Shown here piece after piece: positions 23,613-30,330 of a DNA stretch of 34,435 nucleotides. Where the stretch lies: the NCBI GenBank assembly GCA_018384595.1, contig JAHAYO010000029.1, positions 1-34,435 on the forward strand. Reading direction: 5' to 3'. The position numbers were made by a program, and so were the translations under genes. The DNA comes from Thiopseudomonas sp. (GTDB lineage Bacteria > Pseudomonadota > Gammaproteobacteria > Pseudomonadales > Pseudomonadaceae). A model generated the notes under the pieces. It was given only the letters and a program-made list of their open reading frames with translations. It was not told where the DNA came from and did not search any database. Positions within the stretch are counted from its first letter, which is position 1. The number at the start of each line of letters is the position of its first letter.

Positions 23613-23631
23613 GTGGGTAAAATTTACACAC
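23613..23631. promoter_or_regulatory. 19-bp imperfect palindrome overlapping the MCP promoter -35
   Basis: GTGGGTAAA-A-TTTACACAC is a 9+1+9 palindrome with one mismatch. It overlaps the -35 element of the chemoreceptor promoter (23623-23628) and lies between two divergent genes, which is a typical place for an operator. The cognate regulator is unknown. Confidence 0.45.
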
Positions 23632-23651
23632 ATAGCCGTTTGCGATACAAT
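23623..23651 (+). promoter_or_regulatory. Sigma-70 promoter for the chemoreceptor gene
   Basis: TTTACA (23623-23628), a 17-base spacer and TACAAT (23646-23651) match the -35/-10 consensus at 5 of 6 positions each. The start codon lies about 93 bases downstream of the predicted transcript start. Confidence 0.7.
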
Positions 23652-23750
23652 CCGCGCCCGCTAATCCGCCTGTATTTTATGCACCGCGCATCGCTTGCGT
23701 TGTGTGCAGCTTGTTTGTCTACATCTCCCTATCCGCCCTCAGGAATACCT

Positions 23751-25679
23751 ATGAAAAACCTCAATATGATGGTCAAGCTGACCATAGGGTTTGGCATTGT
23801 TCTGGCTTTGATGATTGTTATGTCCGCCAGTAATGTGCTGGGCCTTAACGACATTACCACCCGTGGTACCAACCTTGACCTGATCTACCAAATTGAAGAC
23901 GCCACCGTTCAGCTGAAGCAGTACAGCGACAGCTATCAGATCAAGCCCGATAACCGCCACCTTGACAGCACTCGCCAGCTAACCGGCCAGATGGCCGATT
24001 TGTCGCGTCAGATACAGAGCCGCCTGCAATTTGCGCAAAACCGCGCCAAGGCTGCCGAAATTCCAACGCTGGCCGAGGCTTATAGCCGTGCTTTTTCTGA
24101 CTACGCGGCTGCGCACCAAAACAAAGAAAGCAACGTAGAGCGGGCGATTGCCAGTGGCGTGCGCTCTGACGAGCTGATCAGTCAGCTCAACCAGCAAATC
24201 AACGGCAGCTTGGAGCACCCTGTGCTGCACGAAAGCCTGAGCAGCGCCGTTGCCGGCCGCCTGAGCGCACGCCTGGCCACCGACCGCCGCACGCTGGCCT
24301 ATCAGGCGCGCGGTTATCTGCTGACTGAAACGCCAGAGGCCATGCAACGTCTCGAAGCGAGCTATAGCGAACTGGAACAGCTCAGCCAACAGCTGCAGAG
24401 CAACCCTAGCCTGTCGTCGGATGCCCGAATCAGTCTGGCCAATGCGATAGAAAGCACCGCCAGCTACATGGATGCACTGCGCGAGCTACCCGCCCTGGTC
24501 AGCCATCAAAGCCAAGCTCGCGACACCATGGACCAAGCCTATAGCGACCTGCACCAACGCACCCTAGAGCTGGCCGGCATTCAGAATCAATTGCTGTCAG
24601 AAAAAATTTCTGAATCCAGAATCGCCACCGTCGTGCTCTCGCTGATTGCGCTGATGCTGGCCACCCTAATTGCCTGGTACATTACCCGCCAGATCGTACA
24701 GCCGCTCAACACGGCCGTAGAAATTGCCAAGGCGCTGGGCAACCGCGATATGACCAGCAGCGGTGTCGAGACGCGCGGTGACGAGTTTGGTACCCTGCTG
24801 CAGGCGCTGGACATCACCCGCAGCAACCTGCGCGAGGCGCTGACCGATGTCAACGGCGTCACCACTCAGCTGGCTGCCGCCGCTGAAGAGCTGTCGGTGG
24901 TCACCGGCCAGACCAGCTCCGGCGTCAACGCCCAGCGCGTCGAAACCGAACAGGTTGCCACCGCTATGAACGAAATGGCCGCCACCGTGCAGGAAGTCGC
25001 GCAAAACTCAGAAGAGGCCGCGCAGGCTGCCCAAAAAGCAGACGGCCAAGCCCAGAGTGGTAACAAGGTATTACGCACCGCGCTGGAAGCCATCCGGCAC
25101 CTGTCCAGCGACGTACAGCAAAGCACGCAAGCGATGCACCGCCTTAACGAAAACAGCGCCAACATCAGCACCGTGCTGACCGTAATCAACGGCATCGCCG
25201 AGCAAACCAACCTACTGGCCCTCAACGCTGCCATCGAGGCGGCGCGAGCGGGCGAAGCGGGCCGTGGTTTTGCCGTGGTGGCGGACGAGGTGCGCGGCCT
25301 AGCCCAGCGCACGCAAGAATCCACCGCTCAGATCGAAGACCTGATCGCCACCTTACAAAAAGGTGCGCAGGATGCGGTACACATGATGGACAGCAGCAGC
25401 CAACTGGCTGAAAACACGCTTGAGCTGGCCCACCAGGCCGACGACGAACTGAGCGCCATTACCCGCACCGTCTCTGAAATTCAGGCAATGAACATGCAGA
25501 TTGCCACCGCTGCCGAGGAACAAAGCTCGGTGGCCGAAGAGATCAACCGCAGCGTCATCAACGTCAACACTATCGCCGACCAGTCGGCCTCTGCCGTCGA
25601 AGAAATGGCCGCCTCATCTGCCGATCTGGCCCGCCTTGGCCAGTCACTGCAAGACCTAGTGTCCCGCTTCCGCGTCTAA
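23751..25679 (+). CDS. Methyl-accepting chemotaxis protein
   Basis: A 642-residue transmembrane chemoreceptor that signals to CheA/CheW. A membrane helix (about 9-31) leads to an all-helical periplasmic domain of roughly 257 residues (32-288), a size matching the helical bimodular (HBM) class rather than the shorter four-helix bundle. A second helix (about 289-310), a HAMP domain and a long cytoplasmic coiled coil follow, with the conserved tip [20 protein letters not shown] continuing into [15 protein letters not shown] (about 482-518). It ends VSRFRV; there is no CheR-binding pentapeptide. The ligand is unknown; HBM receptors often bind organic acids. The start at 23751 follows CAGGAAT, and the longer reading from 23613 would include the promoter. 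Confidence 0.95.
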
Positions 25680-25780: not shown

Positions 25781-26800
25781 ATGCCCTCTTTTGTTAGTGC
25801 CATTTGTTCGCGCCCGCTCATTCCCCCAACCATCCTGCGCATACTGACTGTGCTGATGCTCTTGAGCATGCTGCAGCCAACTGCCGTCGCCAGTGGCATG
25901 CCCAGCCGTCTTGAGGATGCCAAACTGCTGCTTCGCGAGCACGTTTACTTTGACCAGCAGCAAAACCAAACACCCGGCACCCTCTATTGTGGCTGCCGCT
26001 GGCAGTGGATCGGCAGCAGCGGCGGACGTGTCGATCTGGCCAGTTGCGGCTATCAGATCCGCAGCCGACCAGAACGCGCCAAGCGTATCGAGTGGGAGCA
26101 TGTGGTACCGGCCAGCTGGCTGGGCAGTCAGCGCCAATGCTGGCAACAGGGCGGGCGCGACTACTGCCGCCAGAACGACCCGCTGTTTGCGCGCATGGAA
26201 GCCGATCTGCACAACCTAGCGCCGGTGATTGGCGAGGTGAATGCCGACCGCTCCAATTTCCGCATGGGCATGGCCCCGCGCGCACGCGCCATGTATGGCC
26301 GCTGCAGCAGCAAGACCGATTTTGGCCAGCGTATTTTTGAACCCCGCCGCGAGGCACGCGGCAGCGTGGCGCGCATCTACTTTTATATGCACGACCGCTA
26401 CAACCTTAAAATGTCGCAGCAACAGCAAAAGCTGTTTATGCAGTGGCACCTAGCCTATCCAGTCAGCGCTTGGGAGCGCGAGCGCAACCAGCGCATTCAG
26501 CGCCTAACCGGCGTCGATAACCCCTATGTCAGCGGCCAGCGCCAATGGCAACTCAATCCACGCAACAGCGGGGCGGGTTTAATCGGCCTCACCGGCGCTA
26601 CAGGCAGCTCAACACCGGCTGCCAACGCATCCGTAGCGGTCAAGGGTAACCGCAACAGCAAGCTCTATCACTTGCCACACTGCCCCAACTTTGCCGATGT
26701 CAGCCCGCGTAATAGCGTGCCTTTCAAGAGTGAACATCAGGCGCAACAAGCCGGTTACCGTAAAGCCCGTAATTGCCGCCAAACTCCACAAAAGTTTTAA
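25781..26800 (+). CDS. Secreted EndA-type endonuclease I with C-terminal Cys/His domain
   Basis: A 339-residue nuclease of the endonuclease I family, which cuts DNA nonspecifically in the periplasm or outside the cell. Residues 1-38 look like a signal peptide (hydrophobic 18-30, cleavage near AVAS-GM). The catalytic region has EWEHVVPASWLG (His107) and DLHNLAPVIGEVNADRSNFR, the family's His-metal finger and partner residues. Cysteines at 70, 72 and 89 probably form disulfides. After about residue 245 a Gly/Ala/Ser-rich linker leads to an extra domain, GNRNSKLYHLPHCPNF...AGYRKARNC. This resembles the small Ada-type Cys/His module attached to several secreted nucleases. An AAGG ribosome-binding site precedes the ATG. 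Confidence 0.92.
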   Translation: MPSFVSAICSRPLIPPTILRILTVLMLLSMLQPTAVASGMPSRLEDAKLLLREHVYFDQQQNQTPGTLYCGCRWQWIGSSGGRVDLASCGYQIRSRPERAKRIEWEHVVPASWLGSQRQCWQQGGRDYCRQNDPLFARMEADLHNLAPVIGEVNADRSNFRMGMAPRARAMYGRCSSKTDFGQRIFEPRREARGSVARIYFYMHDRYNLKMSQQQQKLFMQWHLAYPVSAWERERNQRIQRLTGVDNPYVSGQRQWQLNPRNSGAGLIGLTGATGSSTPAANASVAVKGNRNSKLYHLPHCPNFADVSPRNSVPFKSEHQAQQAGYRKARNCRQTPQKF

Positions 26801-26886: not shown

Positions 26887-27681
26887 ATGCTTTTTATTCA
26901 ACGTGTTTTACTTGTATTAAGCGCCCTGTTATTCAGTATCCCTGTCTTGGCAGTCGATAGTCGTCTGCAGCAGGTCATCGAGCGTAACAAACTGCAGGTC
27001 TGCATCTGGCCCGATTACTACAGCATTTCCTACCGCGACCCGCGCAGCCAGCAGCTGTCGGGTATTGATATTGATCTGGCCCACGCGCTGGCCGCCGACC
27101 TGGGGGTGGGCCTTGAGTTCATCGACAGCTCGTTCGCCCAGCTAATCCCCGACGTGCAACAGGAAGCCTGTGATATTGCCATGTTCGGCATCGGCATCAC
27201 GCCTGAACGCACAGAACATCTGGCATTCACCACGCCCCATCTGGTCAGCGATGTCATGGCCATCACCACCCGCAGCAACCGGCGCATCCAAACCTGGGAC
27301 GACCTCGACCAGCCCGGCAACGTCGTGGTGGTGGCCAAAGGCACGCTGCACGAGCCCCTTATGCGCGAGCGCTTGCAACACGCCGAACTCAGCACGCCAG
27401 ACACCCCCAAAGCCCGTGAGCAGGAAGTTATTTCCGGCCGCGCAGATGCTTTCATCACCGACTTTCCGTACAGCCTGCGCATGCTAGAAACCACCCCTTG
27501 GGCACGACTGATCAAGCCAGAGCAGAGCTACCATCTCACCTATTACGCCTGGGCGGTCAAACAGGGCGACAGCCAATGGCTGCAGCGTCTCAACCAATTT
27601 GTAGACCGCATCCGCCAAGACGGCCGTCTGCTGGCCGCCGCCCGCAAGCACAATCTGGAACCCGCCGTGGTGATCAAGTAA
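26887..27681 (+). CDS. Periplasmic solute-binding protein (family 3), partner of the downstream diguanylate cyclase
   Basis: A 264-residue periplasmic binding protein with a clear signal peptide (1-22, cleavage SIPVLA-VDS). Family-3 features are LQVCIWPDYYSISYRD, LSGIDIDLAHALAADLGV, DIAMFGIGITPERTEHLAFTTP and ISGRADAFITDFPYSL. Such proteins bind amino acids or related small polar molecules. There is no ABC permease or ATPase gene nearby; instead a membrane diguanylate cyclase starts 3 bases after its stop. That suggests the protein delivers a ligand signal to the sensor domain rather than to a transporter. The 86-bp gap upstream is AT-rich and likely holds the promoter; the ribosome-binding site (GAGAG) is rather far from the ATG. 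Confidence 0.88.
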   Translation: MLFIQRVLLVLSALLFSIPVLAVDSRLQQVIERNKLQVCIWPDYYSISYRDPRSQQLSGIDIDLAHALAADLGVGLEFIDSSFAQLIPDVQQEACDIAMFGIGITPERTEHLAFTTPHLVSDVMAITTRSNRRIQTWDDLDQPGNVVVVAKGTLHEPLMRERLQHAELSTPDTPKAREQEVISGRADAFITDFPYSLRMLETTPWARLIKPEQSYHLTYYAWAVKQGDSQWLQRLNQFVDRIRQDGRLLAAARKHNLEPAVVIK

Positions 27682-27684
27682 AGC

Positions 27685-30330
27685 ATGCCTGCCAATACTC
27701 TCTTCCAGCTTGAGGAACAGGGCAGGCGGCCACTGGCCAAAGCCTCGGTTACCCTGCTGATTGCTCTGCAAATCGTACTGGTGATGTGGGTACTGGGTGG
27801 CGTCTATGCCGCCACCCAACAATTGCGTCAGGTCACGCTCGATAACCTGCAAAGCCACGCCAGTCTGCAAAGTCAGAACCTCAGCGAGCAACTGACACAA
27901 AGCATGAACCTGCTGCACCTGCATTTTGATGCGCTACTGAGCGACCACCCTGATGCTGCCATCGACCCCGATGTGCTGCGCGGCGTTTTGCAGCAATTGC
28001 AAAGCAAGCTCCACTTTATTCGTTCGATTTCCGTAGTCGATGTGAGCAGCCACATTTTTGTCAGTACCCGTGCCACCAACGAACATACTAAAGTCGACTT
28101 GGGCACGCTGCTGCCCGAATCGTCCCTGCACAGTACCGGCCTGCTGCGCTTCGCCGCGCCTTGGCACGGTCGTGATTTTGCCGGCGGCCAGCGTTTTACG
28201 GCAGACACCCAACTCCCCCGCCCCGACGCCGGCTTTTTCCCAGTCACCCTTGTGTTGCCAGACGTCCCGCACTGGACGTTTTTGGTGGCCGTCAACAGCG
28301 ACTTTTTCATCAACGCTGCGCCGCCCTACAAGGCTGCTGGCGATCTGGCCTACCGCGTGCTGCTCGACAACGGCACCTTGCTGTTTTCCAGTGCCGACAA
28401 CGAACAACCCGGCACCCAGCCACTAAGCCCTGAACACCTACAACAGGTACTGCAACACCACAGCGGCACCCAGCACTGGCTGGATGAGCACAACCAGCAG
28501 CAACTGGGTGCCTACCACGCTTCATACAGCTACCCCTGGTTTGTGCATGCCCAGGCCTCGGCAGACTACGCCCTGCAACAGTGGCGCACTGACAGCCGCC
28601 GCCTATGGCTGGGCGCGTGCAGTTTACTGGCTGTCATGCTGCTGGTCGGCGGGCTGTTCACCCGTCGTGCGTACCGCACCCTACAGCAAGAACAGCACAT
28701 GCTGGAGAAAAACCGTCTGGCTGCCATGGTATTCATGCACAGCAACGACCTGATCGGCATTACCGACAGCAACCGCGCGCTCATTGCCGTCAACCCTGCC
28801 TATGAAACCATCACCGGCTACACTGCAGCCGAAGCCCTGGGCAGGATTCCGGGTACTTTCCGCACCGACCCCGACAGCGAAGCCACCTATGCCAGCCTCT
28901 GGCACACGCTTGAGTCCGGCAACCAATGGCAAGGCGAAATCAGCGAATACCACAAGGACGGCCATCTGATTACCGGTCAGTTGCAGGTCAATACCATTCG
29001 CGATGAACAGGGCAAAATCCTGAACTATGTCGGCGTGTTCAAAGACCTTTCACAACTGCACGCCAGCGAAGCCACCCTCCTCAAGCTGTCACAAGCCGTC
29101 GAACAAAGCCCGTCCAGCATTGTCATAACCACCTCGGCAGCCAACATTGAGTACGCCAACCCACAGTTTCTGGCCCTCACCGGCTACAGCCGTGACGAAG
29201 TCATGGGAGTCAACCCGCGCATCCTGCAGTCTGGCAAAACCCTACGGCCCACATACATTGATTTGTGGCGGCGCATCTCTTCCGGACAGGTCTGGCACGG
29301 CGAATTCATCAACCGCCGCAAAGACGGCAGCCTCTACTATGAACGCTGCAGCATCAGCCCCGTGCTGGACAATAAGGGCCAGCTAACCGGCTACCTGGGC
29401 ATCAAGCATGACGTCACCGCAGAAAAAGAGGCCGAGCAGGCCATGCGTCTGGCCGCCAGCGTCACCGCCAATACTGCCGAAAGCATCATGGTTTGCGATG
29501 CAAACGAACGCATTATCGAAGTCAACCCCGCCTTTACTCGGCTCACCGGCTATAGCAGCGACGAGGTACTGGGCCAACACCCCAGCATGCTGTGCGACGG
29601 GCAGCGCAACAGCGAAGTCTACACCGAACTGCGCGCCACGCTGGCGGTACAGGACCAGTGGCAGGGCGAATTTTGGAACCGTAGTAAAAACGGCACGCTC
29701 TACGCTATCGCCGGCACTATCAGCGTGATTCGCGATGAAGCCGGCAATCTGACGCACTATGTCAGCATTTTCTCCGACGCTACCGAAAACAAGCGCCAAC
29801 AAGAAAGCCTGCAACAACAGGCACACTTCGACCCGCTGACCGGACTGCCCAACCGTAGCCTGCTCAATGAACGACTGGCACAAGCCATGGCCCGCTCCAT
29901 TAAGCATCAGCATCAGTTGGCCGTCTGTTTTATGGACCTGGACGGTTTCAAGCAGGTCAACGATAGCCTAGGGCATCAGGCGGGTGATGAGCTGTTGATC
30001 TGCGTAGCCAAGCGCCTTAAGGACTGCCTGCGCGGCGATGACACAGTGGCCCGGCTGGGCGGTGACGAATTTGTGCTGCTGCTCAACCCCGTCCGCAGCC
30101 TAGAAGAGTGCGAGCAGATCATTGGCCGCATCCTGACATCAGTTGCCCAGCCCATCGCGCTGGGCAGCGGGCAACAGGCCAGCGTCACCGCCAGTATCGG
30201 CATCACGCTGTTCCCGTGCGATTCAGGCAGCGCCGAACAACTGATGCGCCACGCTGACCACGCCATGTACCAGGCCAAGCAAAACGGCCGCAACGGCTAC
30301 GTCATCTCACCCAAAGCCCTGCAGCCGTAA
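27685..30330 (+). CDS. Membrane diguanylate cyclase with periplasmic sensor, three PAS domains and GGDEF
   Basis: An 881-residue sensor enzyme that makes cyclic di-GMP from two GTP. A membrane helix at about 21-44 and another at about 307-328 enclose a periplasmic domain of some 260 residues, by size and pattern Cache-like. Three PAS domains follow at about 350-465, 470-595 and 595-710; each has the NPA/NPQF...TGY core (VNPAYETITGY, YANPQFLALTGY, VNPAFTRLTGY). The GGDEF domain begins with AHFDPLTGLPNRSLL. The catalytic motif GGDEF is at 792-796 and an RxxD inhibitory site (Arg783, Asp786) is five residues before it, so both activity and product inhibition should be intact. No EAL domain. The gene starts 3 bases after the binding-protein gene with only a weak ribosome-binding site, implying translational coupling. 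Confidence 0.95.
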   Translation: MPANTLFQLEEQGRRPLAKASVTLLIALQIVLVMWVLGGVYAATQQLRQVTLDNLQSHASLQSQNLSEQLTQSMNLLHLHFDALLSDHPDAAIDPDVLRGVLQQLQSKLHFIRSISVVDVSSHIFVSTRATNEHTKVDLGTLLPESSLHSTGLLRFAAPWHGRDFAGGQRFTADTQLPRPDAGFFPVTLVLPDVPHWTFLVAVNSDFFINAAPPYKAAGDLAYRVLLDNGTLLFSSADNEQPGTQPLSPEHLQQVLQHHSGTQHWLDEHNQQQLGAYHASYSYPWFVHAQASADYALQQWRTDSRRLWLGACSLLAVMLLVGGLFTRRAYRTLQQEQHMLEKNRLAAMVFMHSNDLIGITDSNRALIAVNPAYETITGYTAAEALGRIPGTFRTDPDSEATYASLWHTLESGNQWQGEISEYHKDGHLITGQLQVNTIRDEQGKILNYVGVFKDLSQLHASEATLLKLSQAVEQSPSSIVITTSAANIEYANPQFLALTGYSRDEVMGVNPRILQSGKTLRPTYIDLWRRISSGQVWHGEFINRRKDGSLYYERCSISPVLDNKGQLTGYLGIKHDVTAEKEAEQAMRLAASVTANTAESIMVCDANERIIEVNPAFTRLTGYSSDEVLGQHPSMLCDGQRNSEVYTELRATLAVQDQWQGEFWNRSKNGTLYAIAGTISVIRDEAGNLTHYVSIFSDATENKRQQESLQQQAHFDPLTGLPNRSLLNERLAQAMARSIKHQHQLAVCFMDLDGFKQVNDSLGHQAGDELLICVAKRLKDCLRGDDTVARLGGDEFVLLLNPVRSLEECEQIIGRILTSVAQPIALGSGQQASVTASIGITLFPCDSGSAEQLMRHADHAMYQAKQNGRNGYVISPKALQP

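Follow-up and report, generated by a model that had tools for sequence, protein, structure and literature searches.

Does a solute-binding protein whose gene lies directly in front of the gene for a membrane GGDEF protein act as the input of that protein? The question is raised by two adjacent genes in a 34,435-nucleotide contig of Thiopseudomonas sp. (GenBank assembly GCA_018384595.1, contig JAHAYO010000029.1), the whole of which is the stretch analysed here and is called the window. The first gene encodes a family-3 solute-binding protein (SBP; Pfam SBP_bac_3, 97.1 bits, cut-off 26.4) and the second a receptor with a GGDEF output domain (Table 1). An initial annotation of this DNA had proposed a relay from the binding protein to the cyclase. 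The gene coordinates and the 3-base spacing that it gave are both confirmed in the sequence, where the TAA stop of the SBP gene is followed by AGC and then, in the same reading frame, by the ATG of the receptor gene. The two genes form a real, conserved SBP-receptor pair, and their sequences are best read as encoding an SBP-to-receptor relay, which we hold to be probable.

How widespread is the pairing? A scan of the genome collection with the SBPs of the window and of genome G060 returned 403 stretches that encode an SBP relative (E<=1e-3), and we analysed the best 80, with identities of 55-68%. These 80 loci were selected on similarity of the SBP, and in 78 of them the SBP gene is followed, on the same strand, by a gene for a receptor with a homologous sensor. 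The two exceptions are L082, with no receptor beside the SBP, and L108, whose contig ends after another 759 bases in which there is no sensor. The nearest receptor start lies at most 50 bases from the SBP stop in 76 of the 78 and the genes overlap in 29, sizes that lean small because our script took the start codon nearest to the SBP stop. As a control, we inspected 33 other matches of the window SBP (29 loci, including the apparently decayed copy L055, and four at 28-30% identity from the class draw described below): none has the sensor within its 1.5-kb flanks, as against 78 of the 80 close relatives.

The outputs of the 78 receptors differ. There are 24 with GGDEF, 35 with GGDEF-EAL and 16 with a histidine kinase, and three are cut off by the contig end; the kinases are 14 assigned by script plus L110, assigned by a HisKA_3 match, and L141, assigned by eye, and L093 was counted as GGDEF although an EAL match sits in an overlapping frame behind it. 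The four SBPs nearest to that of the window, all from Comamonadaceae (L077, L078, L080 and L089), precede receptors with the same three-PAS-GGDEF layout, their sensors being 43-45% and their GGDEF domains 57-59% identical to those of the window. In G060, an overlapping SBP gene (57% identical to that of the window) lies upstream of a histidine kinase with the shared sensor (34%). Among 321 genomes drawn from the class, seven match on the SBP side, namely the window, G657, G572 and the four at 28-30% identity. Pairs in which the two genes are divergently oriented were found on an Azospirillum plasmid (L216; SBP 47%, hybrid kinase, sensor E 1.3e-30) and in G572 (L159).

Counted from the sensor, the picture is similar. 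Sixty sensor matches are listed for the genomes that harbour 40 of the 80 loci, and in these genomes, which were chosen for their SBP, 44 of the 46 sensors with E<1e-20 have an SBP at most 700 bases upstream on the same strand; the exceptions are in G791 and G768. Fourteen weaker matches (36-44 bits) have no SBP alongside; taken as generic double-Cache domains, they were excluded from this count. Drawing 300 genomes across one order yielded 13 sensors, spread over 12 genomes. Of the 13, 11 adjoin an SBP, one lies at a contig edge and one is without SBP; this draw was centred on the SBP-selected genome G758, and without the previously reached G758, G769 and G786 the count is 8 of 10. In an order of 20 genomes, both sensors found have an SBP. 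The draw of 321 genomes from the class gave six sensor matches: the window and G657 with an SBP, G572 with a divergently oriented SBP gene, and three weak ones (G490, G432 and G720), again taken as generic double-Cache domains, with no SBP in the stretches examined. Since the profile searches behind the class and order draws were limited to 6-8 scored candidates per genome, sensors may be missed. Among 398 genomes of the window's own family, the sensor has three strong matches (the window, G003 and G060) and four weak ones (G069, G152, G252 and G276). Sensors of this family usually have a binding protein alongside. The initial annotation had proposed to look at co-occurrence across genomes, and from both sides orthologues of the cyclase are usually not without an SBP.

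We then compared the distances among SBPs with those among sensors over 71 rows (70 loci plus the window), leaving out the sensor-less L082 and L108, the split frames L115 and L137, L122 and L125 at contig ends, and L092, L100, L113 and L135, which were absent from the alignment. The two sets correlate with r 0.68, a value as high being found in 0 of 999 permutations; shared descent of whole operons inflates such correlations, and only the contrast with GGDEF favours a specific link. In the 56 GGDEF operons, r is 0.77 for SBP and sensor, 0.58 for sensor and GGDEF and 0.43 for SBP and GGDEF, and the partial correlations are -0.02 for SBP and GGDEF given the sensor and 0.70 for SBP and sensor given GGDEF. 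Restricted to SBP distances above 0.25, r is 0.45 for SBP and sensor versus 0.13 for SBP and GGDEF. Mean identity in the 56 operons is 68% for the SBP, the trait used for selection, 36% for the sensor and 47% for GGDEF. Because the SBP-sensor correlation exceeds that of SBP and GGDEF and survives given GGDEF, the SBP evolves together with the sensor, even though it is the GGDEF domain that is in the same polypeptide as the sensor.

Mapped onto the SBP tree, the output label requires 15 changes, the least possible being 2 and the mean of shuffled labels 31.9, though the well-supported branches of this quick tree force only 2-3 changes per output class. Outputs are thus clustered on the tree and yet have been exchanged repeatedly. 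The window SBP groups with the four Comamonadaceae SBPs (SH-aLRT 98), a placement made less sure by its long end branch (1.04). Gene transfer is likely, given how seldom the pair occurs in the window's family. The family as a whole is spread over Beta-, Gamma- and Alphaproteobacteria and two Desulfobacterota. In evolution, SBP and sensor behave as one module that has been joined to GGDEF, GGDEF-EAL and histidine kinase outputs, and the window carries the GGDEF-only, three-PAS version of the cassette. Quite possibly, this SBP_bac_3 subfamily and its matched double-Cache sensor make up a portable cassette that reports a single shared cue from outside the cell, an amino acid or near analogue, to at least four outputs (diguanylate cyclase, cyclase-phosphodiesterase, and HisKA and HisKA_3 kinases) in Proteobacteria as well as Desulfobacterota, and that has also moved between lineages. 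The combination with three PAS domains had looked unfamiliar in the initial annotation. The layout is not unique, being common to the four Comamonadaceae, and with 0 to 3 PAS domains across the family, three such domains were ruled out as its defining feature.

What kind of receptor does the SBP gene precede? The GGDEF domain scores 173.6 bits (Pfam cut-off 23.8), and its catalytic motif and the RGDD inhibitory site, five residues upstream, are both intact, as the initial annotation had read them. Three PAS stretches were found in the Pfam scan, and no EAL match at E<=0.1. The membrane enzyme probably makes cyclic di-GMP; the window's genome has 25 GGDEF matches in 2.25 Mb. Some 265 residues separate the two transmembrane segments seen in the hydropathy profile, in keeping with the 260-residue periplasmic domain described before. 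An AF2 model of receptor residues 1-345 (pLDDT 91.6, pTM 0.84) has as its best Foldseek match 3lif_A (rpHK1S-Z16; E 3.6e-10), and VIA-align superposes the sensor on 3lif_B with Z 19.2 and a root-mean-square deviation of 3.2 over 231 residues. Many further structural matches are titled dCache, tandem Cache or chemoreceptor sensor domains. By sequence, the sensor has no match among PDB chains, and the receptor matches no dCache model of Pfam at E<=0.1, sCache_4 reaching 13.2 bits, below its own cut-off; among the relatives, dCache_1 is matched below cut-off in L110, L149 and L216 and dCache_1_like above cut-off in L216. From the structural matches, the periplasmic sensor is predicted to have a double-Cache fold.

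In HisJ-type proteins, an arginine and an aspartate hold the carboxylate and the ammonium group of the amino acid. R108 and D192 of the window SBP align with the same residues of its closest solved relative, AncCDT-1, and are invariant in 71 of 71 SBPs, together with W41, D43, Y44, Y45, T153, H155 and E156. AncCDT-1 is described as non-catalytic and as binding L-arginine (PMC7683729). The ligand is possibly an amino acid, perhaps a cationic one. A more distant SBP relative (38.5%) on a Methylobacterium plasmid (L217:5183-9649) sits in an amino-acid ATP-binding cassette (ABC) operon that also encodes an arginase-family protein and an M20-type hydrolase, a context that hints at the ancestral ligand.

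A relay built from these parts would start with the secreted SBP capturing a small molecule outside the cell, most probably an amino acid or near analogue. In its loaded, closed form the SBP would dock on the cyclase's double-Cache domain in the periplasm, and the change would travel via the second transmembrane segment and the three PAS domains to set GGDEF activity. An outside cue would in this way alter cyclic di-GMP, activation and inhibition being alike possible, and the intact RxxD site would allow product inhibition. The periplasmic location of the SBP, its physical docking, the ligand class, the enzyme activity and the sign of the effect are parts of this scheme that we infer.

Several observations weigh against the relay. 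G003, of the same genus, encodes the closest cyclase (49% over the full length) without an adjoining SBP gene; this 90%-complete genome yielded no close SBP at all (best 24% identity), so that its receptor may work alone. In G791, the SBP (L082) and the sensor (L186) lie on separate contigs; G926 has one sensor without SBP; G768 has a 93-bit sensor without SBP, the SBP search there having stopped at E 1e-40; and in G776 a second SBP has no sensor listed for it. In L115 and L137 (2 of 78) the receptor is split into two frames. To these points are added the limits given above on the choice of the 80 loci, the spacer sizes, shared descent and the number of forced output changes. A predicted complex of the two proteins had been among the checks proposed in the initial annotation. 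Our AF2 model of SBP and sensor linked in one read-through frame, for which 15 linked relatives plus 66 single-gene rows were used, has good local confidence, with a pTM of 0.58 and no confident interface or placement of SBP and sensor. With a receptor that is probably dimeric and a linker that is artificial, this model neither supports nor refutes a complex.

The cyclase of G003 and the lack of a predicted interface would also fit direct sensing, in which the double-Cache domain recognises a ligand of its own and the SBP just concentrates, delivers or buffers that ligand with no signalling complex, and many of the matched double-Cache-type structures are titled with a bound small ligand. We nevertheless consider direct sensing unlikely, as the frequent pairing and a covariation of SBP and sensor stronger than that with the output domain fit a binding partner and less so a buffer. 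It is less likely still, and very much so, that the SBP serves an ABC transporter encoded elsewhere and that its co-transcription with the cyclase is incidental or merely regulatory. An amino-acid-type ABC operon does lie on contig C53 of the window's genome, and the Methylobacterium relative sits in such an operon; the C53 operon, however, carries its own SBP, nearly all loci of the subfamily adjoin a receptor, and no permease or transport ATPase was found among the six window neighbours scanned on both sides of the pair, so that the binding-protein gene does stand without a transporter partner, as first annotated. Altogether, the window's genome has three SBP_bac_3 matches, one of them within an ABC operon (two permeases and an ATPase). 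It is scarcely credible that the SBP-like protein makes the signal itself, as a periplasmic enzyme akin to cyclohexadienyl dehydratase: reconstructed and natural dehydratases are among its best solved relatives in the PDB, but AncCDT-1, the best match of all, is non-catalytic and binds arginine. The candidate was ruled out by the missing general acid Glu173 of these enzymes (PMC7683729); by our reading, Tyr195 of the window SBP aligns with it, at a position occupied by Y or F in 71 of 71 SBPs.

The SBP-to-receptor relay first suggested for this locus is therefore supported by the conserved pairing and by the covariation of SBP and sensor, both read from sequences. To our knowledge, the inputs of most diguanylate cyclases are unknown. 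In this family the binding protein is soluble and could be produced for screening, and because one input pair goes with different outputs, a single ligand screen would inform many receptors. The family also offers a natural test case for the passage of an SBP signal through the membrane to different output enzymes, and the pairing looks like a reusable sensing module.

Table 1. Features of the SBP-receptor locus (window positions; residues are those of the respective protein; TM, transmembrane segment).
Feature	Positions	Strand	Basis or remark
SBP_bac_3 solute-binding protein, 264 aa	26887..27681	+	Pfam; signal-peptide-like N-terminal stretch, residues about 1-22 (7-21 by hydropathy)
Gene junction TAA-AGC-ATG	27679..27687	+	3 bases stop to start
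Membrane protein with GGDEF output, 881 aa: TM1 - double-Cache sensor - TM2 - PAS - PAS - PAS - GGDEF	27685..30330	+	
Transmembrane segment 1, residues 22-40	27748..27804	+	hydropathy
Periplasmic sensor, residues 45-305, predicted double-Cache fold	27817..28599	+	AF2, Foldseek, VIA-align
Transmembrane segment 2, residues 307-325	28603..28659	+	hydropathy
PAS domain 1, residues about 346-460	28720..29064	+	Pfam; approximate boundaries
PAS domain 2, residues about 468-579	29086..29421	+	Pfam; approximate boundaries
PAS domain 3, residues about 598-706	29476..29802	+	Pfam; approximate boundaries
GGDEF domain, residues 713-870	29821..30294	+	Pfam
RGDD (RxxD inhibitory site)	30031..30042	+	read from sequence
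GGDEF catalytic motif	30058..30072	+	read from sequence

The six neighbours scanned encode a chemoreceptor, endonuclease I, an esterase, a zinc alcohol dehydrogenase, a TonB-dependent receptor and MurJ. The chemoreceptor, two genes upstream of the SBP (23613-25679), has a helical bimodular (HBM) sensor, and the C-terminal stretch of endonuclease I (25781-26800) is weakly similar to an Ada metal-binding domain (18.9 bits, under the cut-off of 23). A promoter and terminator scan found no sigma-70-like site, and terminators were at chance level.

Some members of the family deserve a separate mention. In L110 (6799-9357) the sensor is joined to GAF and a HisKA_3-type kinase (Pfam), and L141 (6756-9314) has the same parts by similarity, as judged by eye. 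The RxxD site is retained in 54 of the 59 GGDEF-bearing receptors; in the other five, all GGDEF-EAL proteins (L079, L085, L096, L100 and L111), its first Arg is replaced by G, A or S. On contig C1 of G020, L055 (1501-1737) holds a C-terminal piece of the SBP subfamily, 47% identical to residues 183-261, in a 107-residue frame. It looks like a decayed SBP copy, and no cyclase was found among the surrounding open reading frames of at least 60 residues.

How does the locus compare with known systems? Binding-protein-controlled cyclases were rightly said in the initial annotation to be known already, examples being ArtI-STM1987 (PMC8846402) and NspS-MbaA (PMC9993111). In Vibrio cholerae and Sinorhizobium meliloti, the NspS gene is directly upstream of, and overlaps, the gene of the cyclic di-GMP enzyme MbaA, and in V. 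cholerae liganded NspS interacts with MbaA and raises its cyclase activity (PMC9993111). As in the window, an SBP gene there lies directly 5' of the gene of a membrane cyclic di-GMP enzyme with a periplasmic domain. Compared by their descriptions, NspS is PotD-like and senses polyamines, whereas the window SBP is of the SBP_bac_3 type, with no PotD-type model among its Pfam or NCBIfam matches at E<=0.1; and MbaA is a GGDEF-EAL protein, whereas the window receptor has GGDEF only. The scrABC operon of Vibrio parahaemolyticus likewise combines a periplasmic binding protein and a membrane cyclic di-GMP enzyme, signal-loaded ScrB switching ScrC (PMC11315295, PMC10269520). By description, it also has scrA, a signal-making aminotransferase gene, and EAL phosphodiesterase activity, neither of which was seen at the window, where the gene upstream of the pair encodes endonuclease I and the one downstream, on the opposite strand, an esterase.

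The L-arginine response of Salmonella was found genetically to need both the double-Cache domain of the cyclase STM1987 and the putative arginine-binding protein ArtI (PMC8846402); the window SBP reaches 62.3 bits with the ArtI model, the cut-off being 522. In RmcA of Pseudomonas aeruginosa, an SBP_bac_3 domain serves L-arginine sensing in a cyclic di-GMP enzyme (PMC8846402). There the SBP domain is inside the receptor polypeptide, whereas in the window a separate SBP is paired with a double-Cache receptor. A single frame in G004 (L012:190-3993), with an SBP_bac_3-like segment followed by PAS, GGDEF and EAL-like parts (EAL by eye), appears to be a fused counterpart of the two-gene arrangement.

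SBPs are described as activating several receptor classes (PMC9602780, PMC11113362), and many SBP-activated histidine kinases are encoded beside their own SBP gene (PMC11113362). This family resembles them in that 16 of the 80 loci have a kinase output, and differs from them in that the same SBP and sensor pair is also joined to cyclic di-GMP enzymes. In a published test, the AgtS kinase domain did not bind neighbouring SBPs (PMC11113362), and therefore adjacency alone is no proof of interaction. We found no description of the SBP_bac_3/double-Cache family in the open-licence literature searched. The class of mechanism is already known, and the locus is read as a variant of it, an SBP_bac_3/double-Cache cassette with swapped outputs.

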